This document shows positions 33,145-64,000 of a DNA stretch of 64,000 nt, piece after piece. This DNA is from Cornus controversa. Its lineage: Eukaryota; Streptophyta; Magnoliopsida; Cornales; Cornaceae. The position numbers and the translations under genes are program-made. The notes beneath the pieces are model-generated. The model ran no database searches, was not told the DNA's origin, and saw only the letters and a program-made list of their open reading frames with translations. Where the stretch lies: the NCBI GenBank assembly GCA_026545225.1, contig CM048845.1, positions 56,086,033 to 56,150,032 of the forward strand, given 5' to 3'. Numbering within the stretch: position 1 is the first letter of the stretch; every line of letters begins with the position of its first letter.

Positions 33145-33683
33145 TGTAGTATGTCACTCCAATACATGGTATGATATTGTCCGCTTTGGGCCTAAGCCCG
33201 CACAGTTTTGCTCTTGGGTTTTACCCTAAAAGGCCTCATACCATTTGAAGAGATCACACTACATATCAGCACATACCCTTCTCCACACCCAGTCGATGTG
33301 GGATTGAGCAACCTATACCCTGTCAGTGTGGTAGCTCGCCCAGTGTCTCTTCTTGCACCCGCCCACAAGGGTTACTACAATCTACCCCCTTAAGAGGCCC
33401 GACGTCCTTGTCGGCACACTTCCGGCTGGGTTCAGGCTCTAATACCAATTGTAATACCCGCTCCAACACATGGTATGATGTTGTCCACTTTGGGCCTAAG
33501 CGCCCACGGTTTTGCTCTTGGGTTTTACCCCAAAAGGCCTCATACTATTTGAAGAGAACACACTACATATAAGCACATCCCCTTCTCCACACCTAGGCGA
33601 TGTGGGATTGAGCACCTTGTACCCTGTCAGTGTGGTAGCTTGCCCAGTATCTCTTCTTGCACCCACCCACAAGGGTTACTACA
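33145..33683 (-). mobile_element. TRIM element (539 bp) with two ~235-bp LTRs, target duplication ATGCT
   Basis: A complete terminal-repeat retrotransposon in miniature. LTRs lie at 33,145-33,379 and 33,450-33,683; both begin TGTA and end ACTACA on the plus strand. The 70-bp core read on the minus strand begins next to one LTR with TTGGTATTAGAGCC, matching an initiator-Met tRNA primer site with one change. It ends with a purine-rich AAGGGGGT before the other LTR. ATGCT is duplicated at 33,140-33,144 and 33,684-33,688. It has no coding capacity and needs another element's enzymes. The LTR holds CCCACATCG, a motif of a widespread plant TRIM group. Confidence 0.85.
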
Positions 33684-33868
33684 ATGCTTGAGTGATTTTC
33701 AATCAATCTCATTTCAGCATGTTCATAGGTTTGCCAATCAAGTGACTCACTCTCTTGCCAAGCTAGCTTGGATGGATATTAATAGTTTGAGGGTTTACTT
33801 AATTACTTATACTCATTTAGAGGTGAAAAGACTTGCTGAGAGTGATTGTAATCATTTTTTAAATTAAT
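33684..33868 (+). pseudogene. L1-type LINE RNase H-like remnant (right piece)
   Basis: The C-terminal end of the RNase H-like domain cut by the TRIM: CLSDFQSISFQHVHRFANQVTHSLAKLA, ending in a stop at about 33,865. Without the TRIM and one ATGCT it continues the left piece (IIQNIMVDFWSCL). Confidence 0.75.
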
Positions 33869-34479: not shown

Positions 34480-34634
34480 ATGAATCAGACCAATTCTCAG
34501 AAACTTGGTCATCTGATCTCATTCATTTTCAGTGAAGACATGTTTGATTTTTGGCCCTCGTGGCTTAAAAATTTCCACAACTATAAGAACTTCCAAATGT
34601 TTTTTGGTGGAGCACTAACAGAAAATTTCATATG

Positions 34635-35105
34635 GTCTATTGTTTGAGGGCTTAATCACATCATTGTGTGCGGTTATGTTCACTGCAATATAGAACCTGA
34701 GAACATTCTACTCTTGCCTGCTACTACTATTAGTACTATATACATGACAAAACAGGAGGTTTGATCATTACTTGAGAGGTACGTAGCATATCTGATGCTT
34801 GAAGCTGTAATTGACAATATACAAGAACCTGCCCCAATATTTGGACTCTTGGCCTTGTTGTGCATGAGATTCAACTAGCAAATCCTCTTTGGTATAGGAG
34901 ACAAGATTTGGTGAAGGTCATGAATTGCCTAAAATCCCAATTAAGATACTGAAAGAGGGAAAGGATTTGAACAGGGTTGTCTTCTAAAGAAGGAAAGTAC
35001 AGACAGACTGCTGAGATGGTATTGAATAAACCATTAGAAGAGGTTTCAGATGCAGATCATTGTTGTGGAACCGATGACAATGATAATGATTCTTGATCAG
35101 GTGAA
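34635..35105 (+). pseudogene. MAPKKK-like kinase pseudogene, copy 2
   Basis: The duplicate of the fragment at 15,760, with the same defects: CGYVHCNIEPENIL has Asn for the catalytic Asp and Glu for the invariant Lys. Because both copies share these changes, the kinase piece was already dead, or at least altered, before the block was duplicated. Confidence 0.8.
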
Positions 35106-37359: not shown

Positions 37360-37550
37360 AATATATATGTTGCCATGTCCTTGCTATATCTGTATCCTAT
37401 GTTTTAAGAATTTGTTGCATCACCATATCCATAATGTGTCGTGTTTGTATCCATTATATATGTTGTTATGTCCTTGCTGTAACTGGATCCTATATTTTAA
37501 GAATTTGTCGTATCACCGTATCCATAATGTGTCGTGTTTGTATCCATATC
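37360..37550 (+). repeat. 93-bp tandem duplication
   Basis: Two copies of a unit containing CTTGCTGTAACTGGATCCT-like sequence, TTTTAAGAATTTGT and ATAATGTGTCGTGTTTG; the last marker starts at about 37,432 and again 93 bases later. The matching part of duplication copy 1 (near 18,800) has a single unit, so the event followed the segmental duplication. Confidence 0.75.
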
Positions 37551-44300: not shown

Positions 44301-45586
44301 TTAGTCAATTGACTCACAGAAAGCAAATTAAAAGGAAAATTAGGAACATATAGACTGGACGATAAAGACAATGAATTAGTGGTATGAAGAAAACCTTTTC
44401 CAAGAACAGGCCTAGAAGAACCATCAGCTAGAATAATGTGATGGTTAATAGGTTTTAAAGCAGAAAAAAGAGATGAGTTACCAGATATATGCGTGCTAGC
44501 TCCGGAATCAATGACCCAAGAAGGAGAGGATTGAGCCACACATGTAATATTACTTGAATTGGCTAAGGTAGCAGTAGATGGAAGGGCAGTGGAGGTGGAT
44601 GGAAGAGCAGTTTGTAGTTTCTGAATCAACTCGCTAAGTTGAGTAGTGAGTGCCTCCCGAGAACCAGAATTAGAAGCTACATGTCCACGAGTTGTACTAG
44701 GTTGCAGTGGCTGTGAAATACTTTCAGTGACCTGATGCACATAATCTGGCTTCCCATATTTCATCCAACAGTAAGGTTCAGTATGATTGGTACCACCACA
44801 ATGATCACACTTTCGGTCACCACGTCCACTAGAACGACCGCCACCACGGAAACCACCACGAAAGCCACGACTAGAATTACCACGACCACCACGAAAGCCA
44901 CCACGAGAATTACCACGACCACCGCCACTAGAGACTAAGGCAGACGACTCAGAAGGAGGCACAATGGAATGTTGTCCTAAGGACGACCTCAATAAGCGAG
45001 AATATGCATTAGCAGTAGTGGGCAATTTCTCGCTAGCAAGAATTTGATCTTTAAAGCCACGAAGATCAGAGTCCAAACCAAACAACAATGAAGCAATCAT
45101 AAACTCTTCCCAATGACGCTTCTGTTGTTCTAAATCAGTAGTAAACGGACGATACTGCAATAATTGATCCCACAAATTCTTAAGCATGCTGTAATACTCA
45201 GACAATGATTTTTTGGACTGCCTAAAAGCAAAAATCTTCTCATACAACTCATACACCCGAGAAACATTACTCTGTTGCGAAAATGATTCGGCAAGAGACT
45301 CCCAAATCTTCTTAGAGGAATCACAAAAGGCAACAGTAGAGGCAATATTGGATTCCATTCTATGCCACAACCATCCCATAACAATGGAATCCTCACAAAT
45401 CCAATCCTCATGTTTCTTCGTGTCTGTAGGAAGTTCTTCCGTTAAATACTTAATTTTCTTTCGCCCACGAAGAAAAACTTGCATAGCATGAGCCCAAGCA
45501 AGGTAATTAAGACCATTCAATTTTTCTGAGGTAATCGACCGAGGCATATCATCAGTCTTGATAGGTGGTGGTTGATTATCAGCCAT
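41354..45586 (-). CDS. Copia gag-pol polyprotein (intact)
   Basis: A 1,410-residue polyprotein in one frame carrying the virus-like particle protein and all enzymes for copying and integrating the element. Domains in order: gag with a copia-type core and a CCHC zinc knuckle, CDHCGGTNHTEPYC, near residue 260, after an RGG-rich stretch; aspartic protease WVIDSGAS near 357; integrase with its HHCC region (HPSLAKLR to CEACQLGK) near 490 and HTDIWGP/VDDYSR near 545-565; reverse transcriptase with YVDDIIISG near 1,091; RNase H with DADWAGS near 1,255 and SSAEAEYHAM after it. This integrase-before-RT order defines Ty1/copia. The length is normal, all catalytic motifs are present and no stops occur. 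Start is the first ATG after the leader (45,584-45,586). Confidence 0.95.
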   Translation of the reverse strand: MADNQPPPIKTDDMPRSITSEKLNGLNYLAWAHAMQVFLRGRKKIKYLTEELPTDTKKHEDWICEDSIVMGWLWHRMESNIASTVAFCDSSKKIWESLAESFSQQSNVSRVYELYEKIFAFRQSKKSLSEYYSMLKNLWDQLLQYRPFTTDLEQQKRHWEEFMIASLLFGLDSDLRGFKDQILASEKLPTTANAYSRLLRSSLGQHSIVPPSESSALVSSGGGRGNSRGGFRGGRGNSSRGFRGGFRGGGRSSGRGDRKCDHCGGTNHTEPYCWMKYGKPDYVHQVTESISQPLQPSTTRGHVASNSGSREALTTQLSELIQKLQTALPSTSTALPSTATLANSSNITCVAQSSPSWVIDSGASTHISGNSSLFSALKPINHHIILADGSSRPVLGKGFLHTTNSLSLSSSLYVPNFPFNLLSVSQLTKALHCSITFSPTACVFQDLRMKKMIGSGHEKNGLYYLDSDEPSTVVSSALSATVSPLQWHFRLGHPSLAKLRLTIPGLSHVSVLECEACQLGKHHRSSFPSRSHSRQTESFDVIHTDIWGPSRTVSLNGFLYFVIFVDDYSRMTWLFFMKERSELPRIVTKFYNEIFTQFGKRIKNFRSDNALEYTQSIMDSFCVDRGIIHQTSCAHTSQQNSVAERKHRHLLDVARTLLFNMSVPKQFWADAVLTACYLINRMPSAVVGNQTPFSLLYPSISPFQLTPRVFGCVAFAHVLDPGRDKLSPRARKCVFLGYSHTQKGYRCYSPESRRYYVSADVTFFESTMFFSSSSQSLSLDLISARQGEPSSSSPQLPLPLTSSSDSSLPSDSSLPSNPPLQVYQRSRSRPVVSFGPDTTSSSPEVPDPPLLTSSADDLPIALRRGKRSCTQHPIANFVSYDRISSSLHTFAFTLSSISVPSSYQQAISVPGWKQAMDEEMSALHKNQTWELTCLPSGKHTVGCRWVYTVKYLPDGSVERLKARLVAKGYTQTYGVDYLETFSPVARLNSVRVLLSVAVCCSWPLYQLDIKNAFLHGDLQEEVYMAQPPGYVVAGSTHLVCRLRKALYGLKQSPRAWFDRFSVVVIAFGFQRSTSDHSVFIRRSSAAIIVLIVYVDDIIISGSDSIGIAALKRHLGQQFHTKDLGALRYFLGIEVAHFAQGLSLSQRKYVLDLLSETGMLGARLIDTPMDSTVKLDGEQGELFTDVGRYRRLVGKLIYLTVTRPDITYAVSVVSQFMHAPRHPHFEALCRILRYLKGTPGNGLLYKPSSSINVTGFSDADWAGSRSDRRSTSGYCTFVCGNLVTWRSKKQTVVARSSAEAEYHAMAHTASEMLWVRSLLQEMGVVVPAPMPMHCDNQAAIFIASNPVFHERTKHIEVDCHFIRDLLMQKHIVTPYICSEDQLGDIFTKPLARGAFQRLCVKLGMFNLYAPA

Positions 45587-46233
45587 GATTATGTTTGAAA
45601 TTCAAGAATCAACTCAAGGAGACCAATTTACACAAAAAAATAGTCCGAAAATCCAAAGTTGAACCAGAACTTTGTTACAAGAGAAGAGAACTTTGTTACA
45701 AGAGAAGAAGGGAATCAGATTTGATCTTTAGAAGCAAGTAATCATCAAACCTGGACCTGCCCAACTCCCCACAGCATCTGCAGTAGATATTAAGAGCAAT
45801 ACACAGCAGCACACGCACCAGAGGGCACTTCCACGCTCAGCCGAACCTCCTTTTGGGGCAAAAAAACACTTCAAATTCCTTTAAATCAGCAAACAACCAC
45901 CACACGAGGCCTTACCAGGTCTAGACGACACCCTTAGGAGGGATTCAAACCAACAAAAACCACTGAAAAACCCCCAAATCGCAGATCGACAAAATCGAGA
46001 CCCAAAATCAGAAAAAGTTTCAAAAATTGAAAACACCCACCAATCTGCTTCAAATCAAAAAATAAACACCACCATAATTCGTAAAAAAATCAGGCGAACC
46101 AGAATGTAGGGTTCTTGACCTATAAATGATGACATCATCATGACGTCAGCACCTGTATGCTGACGTCACTCCTCTCTGATGTTGGCCAAGTGAATAGGAA
46201 TGAGTTCTAGGTCTTGATCGAGCTCTGATACCA
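45587..46233 (-). other. Copia leader with primer binding site
   Basis: The untranslated leader between the 5' LTR and gag. The first bases next to the LTR, TGGTATCAGAGCTC (46,220-46,233), match the 3' end of the initiator methionine tRNA, the usual primer of plant copia elements. No frame crosses the leader. Confidence 0.9.
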
Positions 46234-47107: not shown

Positions 47108-48149
47108 TGTAGAGACCACGTCTAATTTTAACCGCTTTTCTTTTTATTCATCAATTTTGTCATAAATGCATTTTAAATGATATTTAGTATGTTATAAATG
47201 TGAAAAACATGTTTGAGAACTTGATTAGAGGTTCTAGGAAGTTTTGGAAAAGGGTTTGGCAATTTTTGAGAATTTGGGGTCGGCGGAGCTTGGGACGCGA
47301 GTCAGGTGGGCACGAGAATCTGAAAAATATTTATTTTTGATTTTGGAACAAATGTTATGTTTAAAGAGTTAAGGAAGTAATTTCGGAGACGTAACTACTT
47401 TCGAAATTAAAAACGGAGGTTGGGACGGTATGTTAAGTGGCTTGGGGGTATTTTGGTCATTTCGTGCCCTAGATATGATAAATATCTAAGGTTGAGAATC
47501 CCAATCATTTGAACATTCGCCCAGCTCTCTCTCTTCTCTTCCATTTCATCTCTCTTTCTTCTTTCTTCATTTCGGAGGCCGTAGGCTTGGATTTGGAAGT
47601 TGTTGGTGAATAACAACTTGTCGTACGGGTCAAGGGCTTTGATTTGAATCGAACAAACGTGAATTTCGACAAGGTAAAACTTTGAGGATTTCTTGAGGAT
47701 TTTCTAGAAAGTCTTCAAATTCTAGGTAGATGTGTTTCTTCCTTCTTATTCATCGATTCTAGAGTTTTGGTGAGTTTGGGAAGGTATTGCTTGAGTTTGG
47801 CATGTATGGGAGAGTGTTAGGGTTTTGTATTGTACTATTCTCTTCCTTACAAATTATACATGTTATGCTATTCATATTGTAGTATATGAAAAATGTGTGG
47901 GTATATATGTTGAATCCATGATAATGTGATTTTATTTTGAAGCATGAAGGATTATATGCATATATAAAATGCATGCCTAGTTTTGAACATATATATGGTT
48001 ATATGTGGTGTATGTGAGACTGGAATGCATGCTAGAAATCAATTGTAGCAAGAATGTGCATTTAAAAATATGAAAAATATGTGCTATGTGTTATACGTGC
48101 TTGATATGCATGTATGAGTAATTATTGGAGAATTGCCCAAGTGAGTCGT

Positions 48150-48414
48150 ACATGGAGTTCAGAGTTGCCCAACCATGTTACGGAAGTGGTAGAAATATCC
48201 ACAAAAGTATGACCTTTGGAGTTGAGCACTCATACTAAGGCTAATGCTTAGAACTTGGAGTTGTCTAAAATATTGTGACCGTCGAAGTTGCCCACTCACA
48301 ATGGCAAGACCAATATATTGCTGGGATTGTATGATTCTTCAGAGTTATCCAAATCATACGGGTGTCATCGGAGTTGTCCAACACCACATGATCGTCGGAT
48401 TTGACCAATCATGT
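48150..48414 (+). repeat. Hairpin array in LTR-A (seven stem-loops, shared loop motif)
   Basis: Seven consecutive inverted repeats, each around a loop near TCGGAGTTGTCCA. Stems (left/right): ACATGG 48,150-155/48,173-178; AGTATGA 48,206-212/48,230-236; TTAGA 48,248-252/48,264-268; ATTGTGA 48,272-278/48,296-302; GTATGATT 48,329-336/48,352-359; GGTGT 48,361-365/48,381-385; ACATGAT 48,386-392/48,408-414. All pair perfectly. Loops are 11-17 bases. Downstream of the presumed TATA box, so probably in the RNA leader. Confidence 0.85.
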
Positions 48415-49262
48415 TTATGTATCGGATTATGACCGAAGAAGATGTAAATATCTTGATGCTTATATGTTTAAACTGTTAAGCATGATGTATGGATTAAATG
48501 CACGTTTATCAAATTGCATTTGTGTTTATTGAACATGAGAATATTAAATATGTCATGTAGTGTAGCTACATCGTGGTTGTATATCATGTAGGTCGGTGTC
48601 TGGTCGATCCCTAGGTGGGTTAGGGCATTCCTACTAAGCTCAGTTATTTGCTCACCCTTCTCTCCTCAAACCTTTTACAGATAAGGTACCGATGACAGAT
48701 GGGACTTGAGTGGCCAAGTGGAATTCCTTATGACTTTTTAGCCTTATTTTGAGTATTATTTCTAATGATATCCATGCCGAGTTGTGGCATGTTGATTTTG
48801 TTAAACTTGTAGATGGAGTTGAGCTACTTGTACTTTTGGACCCTTTTATATGTAATTCATTTGATGTTTATGAATTTGAAAAATTAAATGAATGGTGTAT
48901 GAGATTTAAACCAAATGCATGAAATGTACGATTTATAACATTTCATTTTTTATCTCACTGTTGCATGAATGGAATTGAGGCTTGATAATGTGTTTGAATG
49001 TGGATTTTCTTGTATTGGTAAACACTTATGAGTTTTTCAGGATATGCATTCGAGGGAGTACGATTTATCATAATCTCTATTACGATGCATCGAAATTCGG
49101 CGATGCATCGTAGAACCAACATCAATATATCGTAATAGTGTTGGAAAATTGGGTTAGAAAATAACAGATCTCGCATGATTTTACAAGGCATCTCCGATGC
49201 ATCATAATTTACGATGCATCGTAACTATGATTATGATGTATTGTAATCTATAGGAATGTCAG

Positions 49263-50202
49263 TGAAATGGCCCGCTCCACCTGATGGTATGATATTGTCC
49301 GTTTTGGGCCTGAGCCCGCACAATTTTGCTCTTGGGTTTTACCCCAAAAGGCCTCATACCATTTGGAGAGAACAGACTACATATAAGCACATTCCTTTCT
49401 CCATAACCAGGCGATGTGGGATTGAGCACCTTGTAGCCTGCCAGTGTGGTAGCTCGCCCTGTGTCTCTCGCACCCGCCCACAAAGGTCATCACAATCCAC
49501 CCCTTGGAGGCCTGACGTCTTCATCGGCACACTTCCGGTTGGGTTCGGCTCTGATACCATTTGTAATGGCCCACTCCACCTGATGGTATGATATTGTTCG
49601 CTTTGGGCCTAAGCCTGTACGGTTTTGCTCTTGAGTTTTACCCCAAAAGGCCTCACCTAACAGCCTGCTCCACCTAATGGTATGATATTGTCCGCTTTGT
49701 CCTGAAGCCCGTATTATTTTGTTCGTAGGTTTTACCTTAAAATGCTTCATACCATTTGGAGAGAACACACTACATATAAGCACATCCCCTTCTCCACGCC
49801 CAAGCGATGTGGGATTGAGTAGCCTGTAGCTTGCCAGTGTGGTAGCTCGCCCAGTGTCTCTTGCACCCGCCCACATCACATCTGCCCACAAGGGTCACTA
49901 CAATCCACCACCCTAGGAGGCCCGACGTCCTCGTCGGCACACTTCTGGTTTAGCTCCGGCTTCGATACCATTTGTAACAGTCCGCACCACCTGATGGTAT
50001 GATATTGTTCGCTTTAGGCTTGAGCTCGCACGGCTTTACTGTTGGATTTTACCCCAAAAAGCCTCATACCATTTGGAGAGAACACACTACAAATAAGCAC
50101 ATCCCTTTTTTCACACCCAGGCGGTGGGATTGAGAACCCTGTAGCCTACCAGTGTGGTAGCTTGCCCAGTGTCTCTTGCACCTGCCCACAAGGGTCACCA
50201 CA
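49263..50202 (-). mobile_element. TRIM array (LTR-core-LTR, LTR-core-LTR) within one target duplication
   Basis: Four LTR copies of the TRIM family also seen at 33,145: 49,263-49,494, 49,562-49,655 (cut short), 49,656-49,902 and 49,973-50,202, with cores 49,495-49,561 and 49,903-49,972. On the minus strand each core starts with a match to the initiator-Met primer site (TGGTATCAGAGCC in the first). GTCAG lies at 49,258-49,262 and 50,203-50,207, so a single target duplication bounds the whole array. It entered LTR-A. Confidence 0.8.
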
Positions 50203-50988
50203 GTCAGCAATAAGGCTATGTTTAGACAAGTGTGTGAGGTTAAGTGTGGGGCCTACTGGGGTTAGTTAGTGTTGAGTTGCACATAGATGTACTTATGTGT
50301 ACATAAATAAGCTTCGGCAGTATTTAAAGGGAAGATTGTTCATTAGGGTTTAATGGACGAGTTCACTCTCTAGATTCGGGCTAGGGGACGGAGTCTCTGT
50401 TGACTGGAAAATGGGGCATGACAACTAGGTATCAAAGTATGATATCAGAGTGAGATTGTTGATGTGAGGTGATGATGTAGCGACCATGACCAATTTTGGT
50501 CAGTTTACATTTTATACATCATAATTGTCATCAATGCGTTTTAAATATTTTTAAGCATGTTTTAAGTGTGTGGAAAATGTTTGGGAAGTTGTATTGAGGT
50601 TTTGGGAAGTTTTCGGAACATTTGGAGAAGTTTGACTTTTTGGTTAAATATGGACCTGGGATACGGTTCGGGTGGGCCTGGGAACCCGAAAAATTCTAAA
50701 AAATATGGGAACATGTTTGAGAAGTTGTATTGAAGTTTTGGGAAGTTTTCAGATTATTTGGAAAAGTTTGACTTTTTGGTCAAACAAAGGTCCGGGATGT
50801 GGTCCAGGTGGGCCCGAAAATCCGAAAAATTCTAAAAATTAATTATTTTTGGTTTTAGATCAATTGAAATATTTATAGACTTAAGGAAGTGATTTTAAGG
50901 TGATAGGAGCTTTTGAAATTAAAAACGGAGGTCGGGAGGGTACGTTAAGTGGCATGGGGGCATTTTAGTCATTTGGCGCCCCAGATAT

Positions 50989-50996
50989 TATAAATA
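50989..50996 (+). promoter_or_regulatory. TATA box of LTR-B
   Basis: TATAAATA about 510 bp into the LTR, followed by a CT-rich leader (CTTTCTCTCTCTAATTTC). The LTRs at 58,516 (minus strand, near 61,171-61,179) and 63,382 (TATATAAG near 63,764) have TATA-like boxes at a similar distance from the LTR start. Confidence 0.6.
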
Positions 50997-51793
50997 TCTA
51001 GGGTTGAGAGATCTTAGCCATTTCTCATGCCACTTTCTCTCTCTAATTTCTCCTAACTTCATCCCTCCACCTTTTCTCTACATTTCGGAGTGTTTCGATT
51101 TGGATTCTAGATTTGCCAAAGAAGGAAAGTGCGTTAGAGCTCACCAAGGGCTCCGGTTTGAACTGAATAATCTTGAGTTTTGGCATGGTAGACATCGGTG
51201 GAATTCTTGAAGATTGCTAGGAAAGCCTTCAAATTCGAGGTAAGGATTCTTCTTCTCTCTTAATTGTCAATTCTAGGGTTTCGGGTGAAATGGTGAGGTG
51301 TAGGTCGAGTTTTGCATAGATGAGAGTAGTGAGAGGGATAGGATTTGATATCTTCTCCTTCCTTTGTGTTCTTTCTATGAAAATTTGATATACCTTGTTA
51401 TATGTATAGTATGAGGGGCTAGAATGTGAAATGTGAGAAGTTGGGAGCATGAATACATTTATGCTAAATTTGTGTGCATGTGTGATTATGTGCGATAATG
51501 AACATGTATGTGATTATATGTTGATAATGTAGTGTAAAATGCATGCTAATTATATGTAACAAGTGTATGCATTTAGTGAAACATGAACAATAAGTGCTAA
51601 ATTGGAGATTTGTAGACACGTGTGAATAATATTCAAGTTTTGACATATATGTGGTTATGTGGTGAGAAAAAGCATGCTATATACCTTTAGAACTAGCTCA
51701 TGCTTTTGAGAAGCATGGAAATGACATACTAGACATATAATGTTTAAAATGCATATATGGGGTTCTTGTGAGGGAACAGGAAAAATGGAATGT

Positions 51794-52060
51794 GCATAGA
51801 ATGTCAGAGTTGTCCAACTATGCTGTGTAAGTAACATTATTACCCTATAAGGTATGACTATCAGAGTGGTCCAATCATACCAAGGTTATGGCCTAGAATT
51901 GGATTATATCCATATTTGGTGACTATTGGAGTTGTCCAATCACCTTGAGGCAAACCACAATATTGCCAATGAAGTATGACATTGTCGGAGTTGTTTACGT
52001 CATACGAATGTATCAGAAGTGTCTTAAGTTACATGATTTGTCAGAGCGGTCCAAATCATG
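51794..52060 (+). repeat. Hairpin array in LTR-B (five stem-loops)
   Basis: Stems: GCATAG 51,794-799/51,818-823; GGTATGA 51,851-857/51,875-881; GGTGA 51,918-922/51,940-944; GTATGAC 51,974-980/51,999-52,005; CATGATTT 52,032-039/52,053-060. Loops include TCAGAGTTGTCC, TCAGAGTGGTCC, TTGGAGTTGTCC and TCGGAGTTGT. The order matches LTR-A hairpins 1, 2, 4, 5 and 7, with paired changes such as A-T to G-C in the second. Confidence 0.85.
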
Positions 52061-53664
52061 TTGGGATATTGGATAAGATCCGTAGAGAGAAATTATATAT
52101 TTTTGCTTATGTGATCATATGTTGAGTATGATATATGTTTTAATGCATTTTTCTTAATATGCATTGCTTGAAAGAATATATAAATATTGAAAGTGATATG
52201 TAGTGTAATGGTATACATTCGTATAGGTCAGTGTCGAGTCGGCACCTAGGTGGGCTAGGGTATTCCTATTGAGCCGTTGAGTTGCTCACCCATTTTTTCC
52301 CAAACTATTTTCAAATAAGGCGCCCATGACAAACGGGACTTGAATGACTCAAGTGGAGTATTTTGTAGCATTTTTGCTTCATTTTGGATATTATGGATTT
52401 GGCTACCCATGTCGACTTGTGTTATGAGGAATTATGTTATTTGTAGTCATTTATGAATTCTTAATACTTTTGGACTATGCATATGTAATTCAAACTATGC
52501 TTGTGAACTTTTAAAGACATTCTTATGAAAAGTATGAATGGATCATTCATGTATCTTATAAGGATGATGAATGGGGAATGTATGAATAGAGTGTGACTAT
52601 GGGATTGTATAAAGTGTCAATTTTGAACCAAATAGGTGGGCTTGTGATGTATGGATTTGTGAGATTGTAAATCTCTTTATGGTAATGCATTGTATGGATG
52701 ATTCTAAGGTTTTTAGAAGGTGATGGATGGATAATGGGGGACACATGCCCAAAGTGTCCAATTTTGGATTCATAGATGATATACATGGATTTTTACCACT
52801 TTTATTAGATTTTAATCATGCTTTGGAGTGGATTATGATTGTATATTGTTGTCATGAGCTTTTAGACGTGGAAAATACAAGTTATAGGTATTTTAGAACT
52901 TTCTGTTGCCTAGGCTCTGCAGCAGCCGGCCGAAAGTGTGAGATCCAAAACACTAAAAATCTGGGAACCTATTTCAGACGACTGAAAGAGGGCTTTAGTC
53001 AACTAAAAGCATCCTTTCGGCCGACCGAAGCCACTCTCCAGTCGACCGACAGAATTAGTTTCCAAAAGGTCGACTGAACCCAGGTTTCAACTGACCAAAG
53101 AGTAGTATCAGCTTACCGAAACTGCTCTGGCATGAAATTTTGTGATTTCTGAGATATAAGCGAGCATACATAAGTACATGGACTAATATGGGGCTCATTG
53201 AGGTGATTGGTGATGAGTATATGCACCCATAAGCGTGTGTATATACTTATGCTTCTGCGGTAATTGAGAGAGTGTTTAAGTGAAGTCTTGATGTCAAATA
53301 TGATATCAAAGTGAGATTGGTGTTGGGATCGTTCATGGGGTTGAGTGGGGCGTGACAGATGAGGTGTAACTGAATCACCCTCGATTTTCCAGAGTTGGAA
53401 ATTGGGGTGTGACAACTTGGTATCAGGGCCCTAGGTTTGAATACCTTAGACGATGGGTTGCGATGAGACCATTTGAGTATTTAAGATTAAGGATTTAGAC
53501 TTGAAGTTTATGAATTGCTTACGTGGATCATGACTACTTGCTTACGTCTTTATAACATGCAAATTGTGGAATGACTTAGCATGACGTTAAGTAAGCATGA
53601 GGAGAATTGGTTGGTGATATACATGTGTTGGTTTTAAGTGTCTTCTTGTTATCTATATAGCAAG

Positions 53665-54655
53665 ATGTCACCACGAAGAGCTCGCGAAGGAGCAACTACA
53701 ACTCCTATTGAAGGGGAGCAATTTATGCACGACATGGTTACAACCATATAGTAAATTGCTAAGGAAACACAAGAGGAGACTCAAGCTCAGCCTAGAGCAG
53801 CTCCTAGTAGGATGATGTTGGCATTGAGACATATCAAAAAGCATAATCCGCCATCATGCGCGGGAGGGTCTGACCCTATGATGGCAAAGAACGGGTTGGA
53901 TGATATAGTCAAGCTCCTTATCACAATGGATTGGGAGATATTCCAAGTGTTATTCTTTGAGAAGTATTTTTCGATAACGGTGAAGGACAGCTTTAGTCAA
54001 GAGTTCTATGAATTGCTTCAAGGCACCATGATAGTTATTGAATACGAGACCAAGTTCACATCCTTTGCTCGTTTTGCACAAGAGGTGATCCCTACTAAGG
54101 AACTCAAGGTGAAGAAGTTCATGAGAGGTCTCCGAACTTTCATAAGAGATAGGGTGACAGTTTTGGGTTTGACAAACTATGCCATAGTGGTGGAAAGAGC
54201 ATTGATAGTGAAGAAGGTTAGCAATGAAAATTAAAGAATACGGGATGCTATGAATCAGGCTAAGGGTACTAGAACTTCTTCTGGTAATCAGGGGATAAAG
54301 AGGCACAGGGATAACGTGTCACTTTCCCAAGGGCAACAACAGGCTCGCTCAGCACCATCATCATCTTTGTCTACTGGACCTTCATAGTCTACGATGGGGT
54401 GCTATCACTACCAGCAGTCCAGTCATTACAAATCAGAGTGCCCTCAGAGGCAAGTTATGGCATCTGTGCCAATGATATCGGAACAGGAGTGGACATGCTC
54501 CATTGTAGTCAACCTGGACATGTTAGAACAAACTATCCTCAGAGGCAGGGTACACAGAGTGGTACTAGGTCTCAGCAGAGGACCCTGCAGGCTGCCACAG
54601 TTCAGTCTGGCCATAGGGCGTTGCCACTACCCCAGCTAGCACAGTTAGTTTAGGG
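53665..54655 (+). pseudogene. Gypsy gag (broken)
   Basis: The capsid gene of the element. It starts with ATG 53,665 (MSPRRAREGATTTP), then a gag core with FFEKYFSITVKDSFSQEFYE, EYETKFTSFARFA and KVKKFMRGLRTFIRDRV, typical of plant chromovirus retrotransposon gag. A later region has zinc-knuckle remnants (CYHYQQSSHYKSECP and GQPGHVRTNYP). Stops after MVTTI, after SNEN and before STMGCY, plus frame changes, inactivate it. Confidence 0.85.
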
Positions 54656-54789
54656 TTCTCGAGTAGCGAGAGGGTTTACATCTACTTCTAGTTAGCATTC
54701 AGGATTTCAGGGGGCTGGCCAACATGGTCACCAGACACAGGGCCATGTTTTATGCTTGCTCAGGCAAATGATGTACCAGGACCATCAGT

Positions 54790-55455
54790 GGCCAGATGTA
54801 TTTTTCTAGTTTCTAGCTCTTAGGTTAGGGTGTTGATAAATTCAGGTGCATCTCATTTATTCATATCTGCTGCATTTGATTATGCCTTAGGGCTGGAGGC
54901 GTCATCACTAGAGTCACCGTTGTCCATTGATACGCTTGTTGGGGGTAGAGTTACCCTGGGTAGAGTGTGTCGATCTTGCGAGATAGAGGTTATGGGATGT
55001 CGGCTAGTGTTCGACTTTGTGCTCCTAGACATGACTAGCTTTGATATCATTCTAGGTATGGATTGGCTTTCTATGTTTAGAGCCATGATTGATTGTCTCC
55101 GTAGGAGGGTGACAGTATGCACACCTGAAGGTGACTGCTTCTATTTTGTGGGAGAGCGTGATGATTTCTATATATCATCACTACTTGGTTCCGGTGTTCG
55201 GGATGGGATTGGATGCTTCTTAGCTAGCTTATTAGCTAAGGAGGATGAGGTTATGACACGTGGAGGGTTTCCACCTATGGTGTGTGATTTCTTAGATGTG
55301 TTTTCGGGGGACCTTACAAAGTTACCTCCGATGCGAGATGTAGTGTTTGGCATTGATCTTACTCCCGGTACCACATCCATCTCTATGGCTTCGTCAGAAT
55401 TAAAGGAGTTGAAAGATCAATTGCAAGAGTTGTTAGAGAAGGGGTTTGTATGACC
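54790..55455 (+). pseudogene. Gypsy aspartic protease and start of RT region
   Basis: A 207-codon open stretch begins VLINSGASHLFIS: the usual LIDSGA(S/T)H active site with Asp replaced by Asn, which should abolish protease activity. It continues with FDIILGMDWLSMFRAMIDC, another family hallmark, and ends in the PPMRDVVFGIDLTPGTTSIS and QLQELLEKGFV segment that leads into RT. The stop at 55,451 (TGA) replaces the Arg codon expected there. Confidence 0.85.
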
Positions 55456-56630
55456 TAATATATCACCTTGGGGAACTCCAATCCTCTTTGTTAAGAAGAA
55501 GGACAGATCCTTGCGATTATGCATAGACTACCAAAAATTGAACCAAGCAATGATTAAGAACAAGTATCCTTTTCCATGGATAGATGACTTGTTTGACTAA
55601 CTTAAGGGTTCAACATGCTTTTCAAAGACTGACTAGATGTCGGGGTATTACCAGTTGAGGGTAAAGGATAAGGACATTCTGAAGACAGCTTTTCAGACTA
55701 GATATGGGCACTATGAGTTTCTAGTGATGCCATTTGATTTGATGAACGCACCGGTGGCGTTCATGGACTTAATGAACCGAGTCTTCAGTGTGTACTTAGA
55801 TAGATTTGTGGTGGTATTTGTGGATGATATTCTCGTGTACTTTTCTTCTATGGAAGAACATAAGATTCATTTGAGGACCGTATTACAGATTTTGAGGGAG
55901 AATCGTTTGTACGCCAAATATGAAAGATGTGAATTTTTTCTAACATAAGTGAAGTTCCTTGGACACGTGGTGTTGGAAGGAGGAGTTTTGTGGATCTTTC
56001 TAAGATTGAAGCGGTAATGAATTAGGAATAACCAAAGAACGTATTTAAAATACATAGCTTCTTGGGGCTAGTAGGTTACTACTGGCGTTTTATAAAGGAC
56101 TTTTGAAAGTTAGTGGCGTCGATGATTAAACTTACTCATAAAGGAGTTAAGTTTGTGTGAAAAGATGATTGAGAGCATTCATTTATGGAGTTGAATAGTA
56201 GATTGACTAGTGCTCCAGTGTTGATAATTCTTGAGCGAGGATAGGGTTATGTGATCTACTATGACACTTCAGGGGACGAATTGTGATGTGTATTGATGCA
56301 AACCGAGAAGGTTGTTGCATATGGTTCCCAACAATTAAAGGCACATGAGCAGAATTGTCCGACTCATGACTTGGAGTTAGCAGCGGTAATCTTTGCTTTG
56401 AAAATGTGGATGCATTATTTGTAAAGGGAAATGTTTGAGGTTTTCTCCGATCATAAGAGCTTGAAGTACCTTTTCACACAGAAGGACTTGAACATGAGGC
56501 AAAGGAGGTGTGTGGAGTACATGGAACACTACGATTTTGATCTTCAGTATCACCCGGGTAAAACTAATGTGGTTATCGATGCTTTGAGCAGAAAATCACA
56601 TGGTACTTTGGTAAGCATTGCCATTTGAGA
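55456..56630 (+). pseudogene. Gypsy reverse transcriptase and RNase H (broken)
   Basis: RT motifs in order: [35 protein letters not shown] (then a stop), [34 protein letters not shown] shown here only by its key parts, and the catalytic FVDDILVY near 55,828. RNase H follows, ending in [30 protein letters not shown] and [15 protein letters not shown]. Several stops and at least one frame change separate RT from RNase H. Confidence 0.85.
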
Positions 56631-56639
56631 GTGGAAGAT

Positions 56640-58150
56640 AATGGAAGACATCTCCGAAATGGGATTATACTTCAGTGAGGGTTGTGAACCGACAACTTTG
56701 TTCACTCTTATTGCGCAACCAACTCTAGTGAGTAGAGTGGTTAAGGAGTATAGGCATGATAATGAGATGAAGAGCATTTGCACTCGAATTTTGGGTGGCG
56801 AAGTGGTAAAAAATTGGATTATTCATTCCGATGGATGTTTGAGGTTTAGAGGGAAAGTGGTTGTACCATTGGTTTGTAGGGATGAGGTTCTTAGAGAGTT
56901 TCATAGCTCTAGACTTGTAGTGCATCCCGATGGTACCAAAATGTATCACAACTTGCGTAGACAGTATTGGTGGAAGGGTATAAAGAAGGATGTTGCATAG
57001 TTTGTGGCAAAGTGTCTCACTTGTCAACAAGTGAAGGCTGAGCACCAAAGACCAGCGGGCTTTTTTACAACCATTACTGGTGGCTATGTGGAAGTGGTAA
57101 CATGTCACTTAGACTTTGTGATGAGATTACCGAGGTCGAGGAAGAGTCACGATGCAATTTGGGTCATTGTCGATAGATTGATCAAGGTGGGTCATTTCCT
57201 CCCTATTCGAGTGATCAATGACATAGATACTCTTAGTCGATTATATATTAATCAGATTATGAGACTGCATGGAGTGCCAGTTTCCATTGTATCTGATAGA
57301 GATCTATGATTTACATCACAGTTTTGGCAGAGTTTTCAGGCAGCACTTGATACAGCCCTTCATTTTAGTACCGCTTTTCATCTTTAGATAAATAGTCAGT
57401 CAGAGCATACTATACAGGTTTTATAGGATATGTTTCAGGCGTGTACACTTGATTTTCGAGGTAGTTGGGAGGATCACCTTCCATTGGTGGAGTTTGTATA
57501 CAATAATAGCTATCAAGCTAATATTAAGATGGCTCCATTCGAGGCACTATATGGTAGACCTTGTAGGTCACCCGTTTGTTAGACAAAGGTTAGAGAGACT
57601 ATTGCTTTGGGTCTAGATATAGTCCTAGAAACTACATAAAAGATAAAGGTAATAAAGCAGCGGTTGCTTACCGCTCAGAGTCGTCAAAAAACCTATGTCG
57701 ATAGAAGGCGTTGGCATTTGAGGTGGGAGATCATGTCTTTCTAAAGGTTTCGCCACGAAGATGTTTAATGAGGTTTGAGTGTAGTGGCAATCTAGCGCCA
57801 TGGTTTGTCGGTCCATTCAAGATATTGGATCGTGTGGGTGAGGTTGCATATCGCTTGGCATTGCCACCACAAATGTCAAGTGTGCACAATAATTTTCACG
57901 TTTCAATGTTGAGAAAGTATGAGCTGGATCTTCATATGTATTAGATTGGACAGATCTTGAAGTGGAGAAGGAAGTGTCATATGAGGAGACAGTTTTGGAC
58001 TCTAGGGAGCAAGTGCTTCGAGCTAATACCATTCCATTGGTTAAAGTGCTTTGGAGACATCATAGAGTCGAGGAGGCTACGTCGGAATGGGAACAAGAAG
58101 TCTATTCAAAGTACCCCTAGTTGTTTAGCACTTGAAGTATATTTCTAATT
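56640..58150 (+). pseudogene. Gypsy integrase and chromodomain (broken)
   Basis: The integrase zinc finger region ends in CLTCQQVKAEHQRPAG (about 57,010), and the catalytic core includes DFVMRLPRSRKSHDAIWVIVDRL-like sequence, SIVSDRDL and DHLPLVEFVYNNSYQ. A GPFKILDRVGEVAYRLALP stretch and VHNNFHVSMLRKY (57,820-57,930) are the gypsy C-terminal integrase signature. At about 58,040 another frame reads VKVLWRHHRVEEATSEWE, the chromodomain of chromoviruses, which targets integration to chromatin. Stops and shifts are frequent. Confidence 0.85.
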
Positions 58151-58169
58151 TCGAGGACGAAATTCCTTG

Positions 58170-58182
58170 AAAGTGGGGAGGT
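58170..58182 (+). other. Gypsy polypurine tract
   Basis: AAAGTGGGGAGGT directly before the 3' LTR, the plus-strand primer of the element. The same layout appears on the minus strand at 61,556-61,570 next to the opposite-facing LTR. Confidence 0.8.
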
Positions 58183-58515
58183 TGTAGAGACTGGGTCCAA
58201 TTTTGACCGGTTTTCTTTTATTCATCATTCTTACCATAAATGTATTTTAAATGATGTTTATCATGTTATAAATATAGGAAACATGTTTGGGAACTTGATT
58301 AGAGGTTTTAGAAAAGTTTGAAAAAGTTTAGCAAAATTTGAGAATTTGGGGTCGGTGGGGCCTAGGACGCAGGTCGGCTGGGCCCAGAAATTAAAAAAAA
58401 AATTAAAAAATATTTATTTTTGGTTGTGGACCAAATCAAATGTTTAAAGAGTTCAGGAAACAATATCGGAGCCATAGCCGCTTTCGAAATTGAAAACGGA
58501 GGTCAGGAAGGTACA
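58183..58515 (+). repeat. 3' LTR of the gypsy element, first 333 bp
   Basis: It begins TGTAGAGACTGGG and closely follows the start of LTR-A (shared GGAACTTGATTAGAGG, AGAATTTGGGGTCGG and AAAACGGAGGT). It stops at 58,515 where an opposite-facing LTR was inserted. The rest of this LTR is not visible inside the window. Confidence 0.8.
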
Positions 58516-61500
58516 TGTCATGCTCCAGAATCCGGACCGCCGGGACTCCCCTGGACCGACCCGAATCCCAAGTGTGAGCCCGTTCACTTAACCCCATAAA
58601 TGACCTTAACTACACTCATGCAACGGTATCAAGCTTTGATACCATGTTACCACACCTCGATTTCCAGACTCCTAGAAGAACGGAGGTTAACCCGTCCATT
58701 AAGCCTAATGAACCCTCATTACCCTCAAGTACCGCGGAAGCTTAACTCTATTATTACACATAGGTATGCACAACTCCACCTCATCCAATCCCAATGGGCC
58801 CTGCATCAAATCATATCCCCCTAGTGGGGATTTACTTATCCACACTATCATGAATCACTCACTTCCAAGACTCAACACTTTATGTGTTTGGAATCTGAAA
58901 CTAAGACCTGCACCATTGGATAGAGAATCTAAAATACTCAATTTCAAAAAAATCACACTCAATTCCGAACTAAAACGAAGAAATTATGTTAAATCGAAGT
59001 TTGGATAGATTTTTGAGTTTGCTGTGAATAGTAACTTCGATTGTGTGAAACTGGGGTTTCGATTGTGCGAAAAAAAGTTTGATTGTGCGAAAATTTTACC
59101 TGTTCGGGACCTTGAACCTGCAATATTTTGCACGATAAAATGGGGGTTTTGATTGTGCGAAATTGCCCATGTCTGGACCCCTAAAAATCACCATAATTCA
59201 CCACCACTTCGCACAATCAAAATGGGGGTTTCGATTGTGAGAAATGGGCATTTTGCAAGATCAAAATGCCCTCCATAGGACTTCCAGCAACCCTATACAT
59301 GGTCCATTTGGAGCTCAATCCACATTCAGTCATTCTAGAACCTCTCATACATTATCCATAACATAATTGAAAGGTACCAACATTAATCATATACTCAAAA
59401 TCATATTCATGATTAAATCATACATCGAAATGAATCATTCTCTTTCACAACCATAATCCATTCCTAGTGAAAATATCATCAAATGAATAAAAGCTACCAC
59501 GAGCACTACATAAACAAATTCGTTATCTTTTCATACCTAACAAGCTCATAATCCAATACATATATCAAAAGTACATTTGACCAAATATAACTACAACTCA
59601 AAGAGGAGTCACGTGCCACAAGCCGGCATGGATAGCCACAAAATGTACAATATCCAAAAGATAGCAAATTGCTAATAGAGTTCCATTTGGACACTCAAGT
59701 CCCATCCGTCATCAGTTCCTTATCTGTAAAAGAGTTTAGAATAAAGGGGTGAGCACCACTACAGCTCAGTAGAGATACCCCAACCCTCCTAAGTGCCGAC
59801 TCGACACCAACCTACATGTAATGCATATGAATACACTACATGCCACATCCACAATCTCACAAACAAATCAACAAATGCAATTAAAGAGGTTTGCATATTT
59901 CACGAATCATGTATAACATGTTCAAATATAAAAGCATTAAGGAATATAAATGCACTCTCTCTCTCAGACCTCATCCGATACCCTACATGATTGGCCTGCT
60001 CCAAGGATCATGTAACCTTGGACACATCCGATAACCATCCTATGACTGGGACAACTTCGAAGGGTCATTCTACCATAGCAATATATAGGATTGTCATAGA
60101 GTGAGAGGACAACTCCGAGGCTAACAATTCTTGGACATTCTCCGATAACCTTCCTATGACCAGAACAACTTCGAGGGGTCATTATTTCATAGCAATGTAT
60201 AGGATTATCGTAGGGTGAGAGGATAACTCCGAGGCTCACTAATGTTGGACACACTCCGATCCTAGGCATTAAGCCTTAGTATGGCAGGTCCACTCCGAGG
60301 GCCATACATAGTGGGTAATTATACCACAATTCATAATATGGTTGGGCCACTCCGAAGTCCCGTGTACCTTATTTGCATTATTTTTCCTGTAACCTCCCAC
60401 ATATGTCATATGAATGCATACATGCCTTGCATTTTATTTTCATGCATTGTTCATGCTCAATAATACCAAAAGAAAGTATATGGCATATCTCCCATCACAA
60501 CAAACTACATATAGCATATATATGTACAACACATGCATATTACATCACATATGCATACTATTTCAAAATTATCATACTTTACTCATGTTTCACTCAATGC
60601 ATACGTTTAGTACATAGAAATAGCATGCATTCAACACCCACATATAATCACATATATGACACTTGGCACACATTTTTCACATATACACCAAATTGAGCAC
60701 ATGATGCCTATATACCAATTTATTTCACTCACACACTTCAAACCCACATGCTACAACCAACACAATGGACACAATTGTGAAATAATAGGACTCTAGAGAA
60801 GGAGAAAACATAACTTTCCACACTTCTCACCATCCTAAAGCATGTGAAACATAACCTACACCTCTCCTCTTCACCCGAAACCCTAGAATCGACAATTAGA
60901 AGAGGAGAAGAACCTCTACCTCGAATTTGAAGGCCTTACAAGCACTTCCCGAAAATCCCAGCAATGTCCACCTTGCCGAATCATGACTTTCTTTAGTTCA
61001 AACCGAAGCTCTTGTCATTCCCTATGGATCTCCCTTCTTCGACGGATCACGAATCACACTCGAAGGCCTCCGAAACTTAGAGAGAAGGAAGAGGGAGGAA
61101 GAAGAGAGAGAAAGGAGCCATGACCGGCTGCTGGAACATTAGAGATATGAAATATCTCTTCCACATCTGATATATAAAGTCCCTAGGCCACAAAAAGACC
61201 AAAATGCCCCCGGGCCATTTAACGTACCTTCTCGGGTGCCATTTTTGATTTCGAAACCTCCTACGGTCTCGTAATCACTTCCTCCACTCTCTAAACATTT
61301 CATCTAAGTTATTTCTAAAAATAAATATTTCTGAGAATTTTCTGGATTCTCGGGCCTACTTAAGTCGCACCCTGAGCCCCAATTTGACCAAAAAGTCAAA
61401 CTTCTCTAAATGTCCCGAAAACTTTCAAAAATATCAAATTAACCTTCCAAACATGTTTCCCACTCTTGAAATATCCATAGCATCATTTGAAACGCATCTA

Positions 61501-61555
61501 TAGCGAAAACGATGAAAAATCGGTAAAGAGGCCAAAATTGGTCACGGTCTCTACA
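58516..61555 (-). repeat. Opposite-facing gypsy LTR (LTR-C), probably a 3' LTR
   Basis: On the minus strand it starts TGTAGAGACCGTGACC at 61,555 and ends GGAGCATGACA at 58,516, 3,040 bp. A polypurine tract lies just outside its start, so it is the 3' LTR of an element that extends to the right. It has a TATA box near 61,171-61,179, a hairpin array at 59,984-60,307 and a patch of GATTGTGCGAAA repeats at 59,035-59,250. The left neighbour GTACA (58,511-58,515) would be its target duplication, but the other end is not in view. Confidence 0.8.
59984..60307 (-). repeat. Hairpin array in LTR-C
   Basis: Plus-strand stems: TACATGAT 59,984-991/60,007-014; ATGAC 60,042-046/60,064-068; ATGACC 60,156-161/60,177-182; GTGAG 60,215-219/60,235-239; GTATGGC 60,279-285/60,301-307. 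Loops read, on the element strand, as CTCGGAGTTATCC, CTCGAAGTTGTTC, CTCGGAGTGGACC and similar. A decayed hairpin at 60,101-60,125 (GTGAG with CTAAC) and another near 60,340 fit the same pattern with lost pairing. Confidence 0.8.
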
Positions 61556-63381
61556 ACCTCCCCACCTTCAAGGAATTTCATCCTCAAAATTAGAATACTC
61601 ATGGCATTTCCAAACTATTTTGTACCGAACGTTATTCTCACCAATAATCGTCATTTTCCCTTTCCATCTATTCCAAGTGTTATACTAACTCCTAACACTC
61701 GAATCTAGCTCAATAAGTGCGTCCCAACTGCTTTAAAGCAACATAACTATGGAATGGTTTAGCTAATGTGAGTAGACAACTCCAAGATAGTCACAAGTTG
61801 TATAGATGATTTTGAATGATCAACCCTAGTGGATAATTAACCACTCCCGTGACATGGTTGGGCAACTCCGAAACCCATGTACGGTTCACTTTCACAACCT
61901 AGAGTCCACAGTCTTTGCCTCAAAACCTATCCAGTCCATCTCTATCTCTAATCTAAGGTAATATTCTTGACTAATCATACCAATCCCTCACAGTGATACA
62001 TCCATATCATCTGGGATCATCAATACTCAAAGTCATTCTATCATTGTCAAACATAACTTTCCAATCTGGCATACCATTCCTGGGCTTAGTCTAATATCCT
62101 ATGCATTGTCACAACACAAATCACATCAATCCAATGCACATCACAAGCGCATTCACCAGAAAGGCATATGACAGTGTACTCGCCGATAAAAATCACATAA
62201 ATAGTGTACTTGCCATAGCAAGCCACATAATTCTGCCTAGTCTCATAGACTACAACCTACTAGAATCCAACGCCAAGTCCAGGATCTTACATCCCACTGA
62301 TTTCACAATCTCATTACTCAAGAGAAGAACTATTTCTCATTTTCATCTTTTACACCAAGGAACCAGTTGACAGTTAGAGAGAATCTCTTTCATATTAGCA
62401 CTTCATTTTAGATAACCCTTACCAATGAGAGTTTGAGGTCACCTATAGTAGCCAAACAACAGCCATACAGTGGCTGCAGCCCACTGCATCTACACGTCCA
62501 CTACGTCCACCTCTTCCCTTTCATGACAAGAAACTATCCTCACTTCAGATACCATATGTCAGGATCCTCGTCCATTATTAACTCATCCTTCTCTTAACAT
62601 CATATCCACACTATGATCCAACTACATCAATCATGCACATATCATAACACACCACCGAGGTCAAGGCACATAAGGAGTGCACTTATCAAAACAAATCATC
62701 CAGTCCTGTCCATCTTTGCGGATTACGATCCATTGGCATTTAGTGTCAAGATTAGGGTTTTACATGCCCTTAACTTCACAATCTCATTCCATCCTTTCAC
62801 TCCAAGGAATTATCTAACAGTTAGAAAGAATACCTTTCATATAGAGCTTCACCTCAGATAACCCCTTCCAATGAGATTTTGAGGTCACCTACAGCAGCCA
62901 AACAACAGCCATACAGTGGCCGCAGCCCACTGCGTCTACACGTCCACTGCGTCCACCTCTTTCCTATCATGGAAGAAATTATCCCTACTTCAGACACTAC
63001 ATGTCAGGGTTCTAACCGACTATCAGCTTATCCTTTACTTAACCATCATATTCAACATATGATACAACTTCTCAATTCTTTTCATATAGTCCCAATGTCT
63101 TATTTTCAGACATAACAATCATCAAATGTTCACCGACTCAAAGAATTTGGTCATTTTTGAGTCCACATCCGACTACTTCAATAATCACCTCTTAGACATA
63201 CCCTGTCTAGAATCCCGGTATTACAACACCACCAATACCCTTAGTCAATTAGCTGGTCACAAGTCTTCACTGGTCGTGCAAGATTGCAACGCTACTTTTA
63301 AACCTCTACCAAACTCTCAGTTCAGAAGTCATTAAGGTAATTCATACATTTCCCCACAATCCCAGACTTACACTCTCAAAG
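61556..63381 (-). pseudogene. Internal remnant of the opposite-facing gypsy element
   Basis: It begins, on the element strand, with a polypurine tract ending GAAGGTGGGGAGGT and GAGGATGAAATTCC, the usual gypsy 3' end of the internal region. Beyond that I recognise no protein. Two hairpins of the LTR type lie at 61,767-61,795 and 61,852-61,880, so part of it may be LTR sequence from another copy. A roughly 446-bp tandem duplication covers about 62,110-63,000. Confidence 0.5.
62110..63000. repeat. Tandem duplication, period about 446 bp
   Basis: The block with GAGGTCACCTA, GCCAAACAACAGCCATACAG, GCAGCCCACTGC and CTACACGTCCACT occurs at 62,435 and again at 62,881. Flanking words such as TTCACAATCTCATT, TTTACACCAAGGAA or CACTCCAAGGAATT repeat too. 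Identity is moderate. It lies inside the decayed gypsy internal region. Confidence 0.7.
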
Positions 63382-64000
63382 TGTAGAGACCGAAACCAAA
63401 TTTGACCGATTTTTAAATTTTATTTTCATCATTTTTGCTATGAATGCATTTTGAATGATGTTTTGAGTGTTTCGAGAGTGGAAAACATGTTTGAAAATAT
63501 GTTATGAGGCTTTTGGAATTTTCAGAAGATTTGAAGAAGTTTGACTTTTTGGTCAAACCAGAGCCTGGGATACTGTCCGAGTGGGCCCGAAAATTCAAAG
63601 AATTTTGAAAAATAATTATTTTTGAGATTGGACGTAACAAAATATTTAATGAGTTAAGGAAGTGATTTTGAAGCCGTAGGAGTTTTCAAAATAAAAAACG
63701 AAGCCCGGGAAGGTACGTTAAGTGACTTAGGGGCAAAAGGGTAATTTACTCTTAGTGAGGTGGCCTATATAAGCGTGTATATTGCTGGGGCAAAGGTGAT
63801 ACATACAGATTTCTGCCATGGGAGCTCCTCCTTCTTCCCTAAGCTTTTCCCTTAGTTTTCATCACCTTGTAGTGTGATTTAGGGCTTGTCTCAAGAGAGA
63901 GAGCTTGTCCTCTCTCCTTCCTCTATACGTTGGTGGGTTCTAGGTCTCCCAAATGTGAGTTCTAAAAATTGAGAGTTTCTAAAGTGTGGATTTGGACTTA
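63382..64000 (+). repeat. Start of another gypsy LTR, cut by the window end
   Basis: It begins TGTAGAGACCGAAACC and continues with the shared LTR words GAATGCATTTTGAATGATG, GAAAACATGTTTG, AGTTTGACTTTTTGGTC and GGTACGTTAAGTGACTT. A TATATAAG box stands near 63,764, then a leader with CTCTCTCC. The part that should hold hairpins lies beyond the window. Confidence 0.8.

Follow-up and report, generated by a model that had tools for sequence, protein, structure and literature searches.

Arrays of inverted repeats with a near-constant loop and co-diverging arms in the long terminal repeats of Cornus controversa Ty3/gypsy elements

The long terminal repeats (LTRs) of a group of related Ty3/gypsy retrotransposons of Cornus controversa carry compact arrays of about six inverted repeats, spaced 27-66 nt apart, in which a near-constant loop is flanked by arms that vary from one repeat to the next and nevertheless match within each repeat. 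We examined them in a 64,000-nt stretch of DNA, referred to as the window (assembly GCA_026545225.1, contig CM048845.1, positions 56,086,033 to 56,150,032 of the forward strand; coordinates below count from its first letter), and in 772 Mb of the genome. The array is a real element of the LTR, it is present in thousands of copies, conservation is higher in its loop than in the flanks, and its arms co-diverge between lineages; it is probably under selection, and it probably sits, as judged from sequence, in an intron of the transcript's leader. The reading that we put first, with a probability of roughly 0.36, is that the repeats would fold as hairpins in unspliced leader RNA and that their loops would be repeated docking sites that mark the genomic RNA to be packaged by the Gag of the same element.

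An earlier note on the window had placed arrays in three LTRs, and perfect stems around the loop motif are found in all three. The array of LTR-A (48,150-48,414, plus strand) comprises six stem-loops, at 48,150-48,178, 48,206-48,236, 48,272-48,302, 48,329-48,359, 48,361-48,385 and 48,386-48,414, with a loop near TCGGAGTTGTCCA. The six of LTR-B (51,794-52,061, plus strand) are at 51,794-51,823, 51,851-51,881, 51,918-51,944, 51,974-52,005, 52,008-52,034 and 52,031-52,061, hairpins 5 and 6 having bases in common. LTR-C (array at 59,984-60,307, minus strand) has six hairpins with perfect stems, at 60,307-60,279, 60,271-60,240, 60,239-60,215, 60,182-60,156, 60,068-60,042 and 60,014-59,984; part of this array is made up by a 114-nt tandem duplication. 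Stems vary from 5 to 10 bp and loops from 15 to 18 nt, with exceptions of 11 nt (in LTR-B, with a 10-bp stem) and 22 nt (in LTR-C). The perfect pairing claimed for the stems holds for most hairpins, hairpin 1 of LTR-C being imperfect, and the paired changes reported between equivalent hairpins are real: ACATGG/CCATGT against GCATAG/CTATGC in hairpin 1, AGTATGA/TCATACT against GGTATGA/TCATACC in hairpin 2, and, in the fifth hairpin, GTATGATT/AATCATAC in LTR-A against GTATGAC/GTCATAC in LTR-B. The arrays also lie, as had been said, 3' of the TATA-like box (at 50,989-50,997, plus strand, in LTR-B).

How far do these arrays stand out from chance? Allowing at most 3 mismatches, TCGGAGTTGTCCA has 36 matches in the window, some of them outside the arrays, against 12.0 expected, and none of 100 shuffles equals that count. 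When stems of at least 6 bp are clustered without reference to the motif, the LTR-A array has five (six in a stretch extending beyond it), against a maximum of four in 10 shuffles; the LTR-B array has four, a number also reached by shuffles and at two places without arrays, and the LTR-C array has no cluster of four. For LTR-B and LTR-C, support depends on stem and loop combined. Model R1 matches all three LTR arrays as well, having been built partly from these very units, and Rfam gives no match in the window at the gathering threshold, the one threshold used.

Eighty further loci were fetched around exact cores on contig C1; between them they take in nearly every exact loop match in a list of 100 for that contig (the last few were omitted). 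In each unit the 13-nt core near TCGGAGTTGTCCA is usually separated by 2-4 nt from the first arm and by 0-2 nt from the second, which is the reverse complement of the first; in the fuller arrays the units follow at near-fixed steps (0, 57, 96, 123, 180, 209 and 236 nt), and a longer type has one unit more. The 60 loci with at least 4 clustered matches, together with the three window arrays, form a set of 63 (the other 20 loci being dropped) that was used for the loop columns, the arm comparison, the block permutation, the covariation and branch counts and the pairing of classes H2b and H5. Over 358 units the loop is kept to a degree that is somewhat overestimated by the retrieval of loci through an exact core: T1 and A5 in 99%, C11 in 94%, G6 in 93% and C12 in 92%. 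T1 and A5 undergo 0.5-0.8 changes per column, as against about 9-11 in the outer flanks; the most changeable loop position is the third, within a CpG.

Perfect stems of at least 5 bp surround 238 of the 397 core matches in the 80 loci; when arms are swapped, such stems occur in 15% of 1814 within-locus controls and in 19% of random ones. Pairing was also scored in 161 array units that had not been chosen for it (T1 and A5 were required): each of pairs 1 to 5 is Watson-Crick in 58-74% of them and occurs in several pair types. Selection by the loop is removed in LTRs chosen by a donor-like splice site alone (20 of 24 exact donor matches): of 58 units there, 64% have stems of at least 5 bp, a length reached by 12% of 240 swaps, and at least 3 units are present in 11 of the 20 LTRs. 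Alignment A1 consists of 58 units with at least 6 of 8 Watson-Crick pairs and with both T1 and A5, two units that seemed to lie off the array being excluded; selected in this way, it offers no independent evidence through its pair counts or its invariant positions. An inner pairing of the loop, GGA with TCC, was considered and is not supported: A5 stands opposite A or C in 76 of 238 units.

Do the two arms change together? Left and right arms match in 64.8% of cases when both come from the same unit (n=358), in 48.8% when the partner is the same hairpin class at another locus, and in about 18% when it belongs to another class (this comparison, the pair score, the branch counts and the block permutation all use classes H1-H6, H2b excluded). 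A pair score was evaluated out of sample, on 221 units of 40 loci with the 20 training loci and the window arrays excluded: own arms score +1.23 bits, arms of the same class at another locus -3.03, those of other classes -10.9 and slid arms -11 to -13. Block permutation extends this to lineages: with subfamilies defined from flanks, own loci excluded and at least 3 members required in each (41, 44 and 50 of the 63 arrays), the arms of five subfamilies fit their own subfamily with a score of 5.05, against 4.59 +- 0.10 on permutation (0 of 5000 permutations), and with three subfamilies the result is 2 of 5000. The arms therefore co-diverge between lineages. The alternative that the earlier note had kept open, simple palindromic sites for a protein binding DNA, such as one dimeric protein with a single half-site, is unlikely, because neighbouring arms differ, matching across hairpins at 18% against 65% for own arms.

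The earlier note had overlooked that LTRs sister to these carry related arrays with other loops. Eight donor-selected LTRs are without the main array; in four of them (L121, L123, L125 and L126) arms of the types RTCACC and GGTGAY enclose a loop similar to TYGGAGTAGAGAATACTC, one (L134) has units with the loop TTCTGAAATGGTCTA, and three have neither. A 21-mer of the TYGGAGTAGAGAATACTC-type loop and its arm has 3,019 genome matches at no more than 3 mismatches, against 19 for a control, and the matches are often 47 nt apart. At one pair of this sister array, tallied by eye over the full listing among units with either arm letter at that pair, 93 units give 45 A-T, 43 G-C, 1 G-T and 4 A-C; the 88 matched of 93 are one co-change kept intact and not 88 events, many units being copies of each other. 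The arrays of the five sister LTRs just named include some whose units could also pair with their neighbours, right arm to following left arm. At the same place, in LTRs with the same donor, the sister arrays have other loops, as a lineage-specific recognition code would predict.

Also overlooked was the position of the arrays inside a predicted leader intron. Sequence predicts one in each LTR: a GT...AG intron at 47,726-48,680 (plus strand) enclosing the array of LTR-A, one at 51,240-52,314 (plus strand) in LTR-B, with the donor AG/GTAAGG and with AA at the acceptor position in this copy, and one at 59,724-60,919 (minus strand) in LTR-C. Among 23 LTRs, the 20 in which both sites were found have a donor-like AG/GT 5' of the array in 20 of 20 cases, a conservation partly built in by locating the donor through a GT-containing motif, and an acceptor-like AG after a T-run 3' of the array in 17 of 20; the two sites are 831-1196 nt apart. 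The donor 22-mer has 2,376 genome matches against 6 for its control, and none of the 76 donor places with one mismatch among the matches listed genome-wide deviates within AG/GTAG, these copies not being independent of one another. Among the 23 LTRs, which were found by the loop, no part of the LTR is better conserved than the array and the acceptor zone. The exon-exon junction, as genomic copies of a spliced leader would have it, has 3 matches in the genome, all with 3 mismatches, against 3 for the control, and a degenerate junction has none at 0 or 1 mismatch and 142 at 2-3 mismatches against 63 for its control, several of the 100 listed matches being clearly unspliced acceptor or donor sites. 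It follows either that spliced RNA is not copied back or that there is no intron or splicing at all.

The favoured proposal can now be put in steps. In the leader of the unspliced transcript the array is predicted to form RNA hairpins. Part of the transcripts would be spliced at the leader intron, and the array would be retained in intron-retaining RNA alone, the form from which a full LTR can be rebuilt. Pairing would act in RNA, and Gag would be the reader of the repeated loops. Why should Gag dock in unspliced RNA in particular? Spliced RNA must be kept out of retrotransposon packaging, as stated in PMC3735527, and a signal borne by the intron would achieve exactly that; besides, the HIV-1 residues that take part in packaging follow a splice donor, and dispersed packaging signals share a single loop motif. 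The position of the array 3' of the TATA box, its asymmetric, near-constant loop, and a local stem probability of 0.58 for the sense strand, in arrays selected for good stems, point to RNA. A bolder version of the proposal, which we hold to be rather improbable, is an RNA identity code: a loop peculiar to the lineage, presented many times on interchangeable stems in a removable leader intron, would restrict packaging by Gag to unspliced RNA of its own lineage. If that were true, the different loops of the sister lineages, which have arrays of three types at one position of the LTR, would be code switches.

Several observations weigh against the proposal. The pairing is uneven: class H2b shows hardly any, and of 60 H5 units 27 have at most 3 of 6 Watson-Crick pairs. 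The wobble tolerance of RNA leaves no sign: mismatches in stems are G-T in 65 cases and A-C in 61, on deep branches 6 against 8 and 6 against 9, and in the sister array 1 against 4; strand-symmetric decay after insertion may mask such a signal. Folding energies fail to favour the sense strand (mean z for 44 arrays with at least 5 matches: sense -0.33, antisense -1.36, upstream flank -1.17; near 0 for the sense strand of the three window arrays), and the stem probabilities of 28 arrays, selected because their stems are good, are 0.36 (global) and 0.58 (local) for the sense strand, 0.52 and 0.61 for the antisense. Significant covariation of single pairs, to which the earlier note had looked for the decision, did not emerge: in the 63 arrays an all-pairs, R-scape-like test of our own implementation, with a tree-aware null of 20 alignments, found no pair at E<0.05. 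On internal branches a branch-wise count finds 15 compensatory changes, where 60 null simulations give 1.15 +- 1.1, but these reduce to about 4-5 independent events because most fall on one branch each (hairpins 4 and 6) and resemble paired stem shifts; block permutation took the place of this count, which such paired register shifts inflate, and is itself weak when only two subfamilies are distinguished (272 of 5000). The intron is little supported by composition (T-richness 0.33 in exon 1, 0.35 in the intron, 0.36 in exon 2), and the second array location (61,880-61,767 in the window, and related copies) is outside it. Finally, substituting the GGAG loop of HIV-1 had no significant effect on packaging, according to PMC7599994. 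Of the structured RNA leader that the earlier note had suggested, then, what stands is the conservation of the loop over its flanks, the varying stems that still pair, the co-divergence of the arms and the position 3' of the TATA box; pairing at the level of RNA is unsupported by the covariation, G-T and energy tests.

The same observations bear on other explanations. The loops could be read in the intron by a host RNA-binding protein that keeps a share of the RNA unspliced, controlling splicing or nuclear export. A near-constant, repeated loop between donor-like and acceptor-like sites, in an array whose conservation is equalled by few parts of the putative intron, would suit it; a short array also in the internal region, outside that intron, would not, and the symmetry of G-T and A-C gives no pointer to RNA here either; we think this unlikely. 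That symmetry, with an ordinary sense-RNA folding energy and an antisense strand at least its equal by z-score and stem probability, is what one might expect if pairing occurred in DNA, as a cruciform or as hairpins in single-stranded cDNA, or if the repeats were chromatin dyad sites, for example an enhancer-like element of a first intron. The asymmetry of the loop speaks against this, and a single dimeric DNA-binding protein would leave unexplained why the arms of neighbours differ (the 18% cross-match); it too seems to us a doubtful explanation.

Must the arms be selected at all? Quasi-palindrome template switching during reverse transcription or replication might copy one arm onto the other, selection acting on the loop motif alone. 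Watson-Crick arms without a G-T preference would be expected of such a process, paired one-bp stem shifts do alter several positions at once, and on a tree built from the flanks double Watson-Crick changes number 20 at the tips and 12 deep, which does not single out selected lineages. On a tree built from the arrays the relation is reversed (11 deep, 5 at the tips), the array-tree tip count of 7 is not clearly above its null of 3.7 +- 2.1, and the constant presence of matched arms around the same loops is left unexplained. We consider arm matching by mutation alone quite unlikely. Packaging by Gag of unspliced RNA marked by the loops remains the reading that we prefer.

How do the arrays compare with known systems? 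Direct tandem repeats of LTRs are alike in that the units here seem to have been tandem-duplicated (114 nt in LTR-C; the 47-nt period of the sister array), but ordinary direct repeats need not retain matched arms while arm sequences vary between units. BARE is a plant LTR element as well, of the Ty1/copia type. It makes spliced and unspliced RNAs, the spliced of which must be excluded from packaging; its intron, unlike the leader intron proposed here, is 104 nt long and lies beside the end of gag, as PMC3735527 describes, and the term stem-loop is absent from that paper's main text. The Psi leader of HIV-1 likewise has hairpins beside or after a splice donor, residues directly after the major splice site that help to select unspliced RNA, and GGAG in a loop that its NC protein is able to bind tightly (PMC7599994); the present array differs in consisting of about six hairpins with one loop sequence, different stems and longer loops, and the protein binding it is only proposed here. 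Packaging signals that are stem-loops with a common short loop motif are known from MS2 and STNV (PMC3662417), where they are spread through the genome and read by coat protein, whereas the array is compact and fixed in its LTR position. Among the literature matches listed, no title or abstract describes arrays of this kind, subscription papers being mostly outside the coverage.

The elements that carry the arrays occupy 47,108-64,000, a nest of Ty3/gypsy LTR elements. LTR-A (47,108-50,423, plus strand; TGTAGAGACC...CATGACA) was delimited by its start motif and repeats, its 3' end being placed from sequence, and holds an insertion of unrelated repeat DNA at about 49,270-50,230. LTR-B (50,476-53,414, plus strand) has the TG...CA ends TGTAGCGACC...GTGTGACA and is followed by the primer binding site TGGTATCAGGGC (53,418-53,429, plus strand), which resembles the complement of the 3' end of what we take to be initiator tRNA-Met. 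It is the 5' LTR of a broken gag-protease-RT-integrase region (53,755-57,309, plus strand), in which four of six tested frames have Pfam matches: Retrotrans_gag PF03732, RVP_2 PF08284, RVT_1 PF00078 and Integrase_H2C2 PF17921. LTR-C (58,516-61,555, minus strand) was recognized by its start motif, its end likewise placed from sequence, and is preceded by a polypurine tract, also read from sequence. LTR-B has relatives in LTR-A, in LTR-C and in a further LTR that starts at 63,382. With these domains, the TG...CA ends, the primer binding site and the polypurine tract, the element is a Ty3/gypsy LTR retrotransposon; we assume that the domain families denote gypsy and not copia. A plant chromovirus (Tekay-like) would have a chromodomain at the C-terminus of its integrase; Pfam, applied with a limit of E=1 to a 55-aa C-terminal piece, gave no match, and viral contigs yielded no relatives, either by the array pattern or by a piece of the integrase region. 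The short array outside the LTR (61,767-61,880, minus strand; hairpin 1 and a hairpin-3-like unit), 5' of the polypurine tract before LTR-C, has counterparts at five other loci (L016, L018, L059, L062 and L070), whose LTRs start with TGTAAGGACC or TGTAACGGCC.

The window holds other features besides. Five copies of a dispersed repeat of about 225 nt, 60-92% identical to a reference copy, lie at 33,122-33,685 and 49,240-50,209, partly within LTR-A. At 25,099-30,364 there is a large inverted repeat with nested arms, whose main pairs are 84-95% complementary, and a short centre. An uninterrupted frame of 1415 aa (41,354-45,601, minus strand) resembles, to the eye, a Ty1/copia polyprotein, and the 175-nt repeats at 41,172 and 46,277, 98% identical, look like parts of its LTRs. 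Blocks at 15,747-21,182 and 34,627-39,817, 18.5-18.9 kb apart and with matched pieces 82-95% identical, are likely a segmental duplication.

The packaged RNA of LTR retrotransposons other than BARE is fairly little known, according to PMC3735527. An array that is compact, repeated, lineage-specific, present in thousands of copies and placed in a predicted leader intron would be a directly testable candidate for how such an element might choose its RNA. Even if its pairing should prove to be a matter of DNA, a fixed centre between matched arms that change freely is unusual and calls for explanation.

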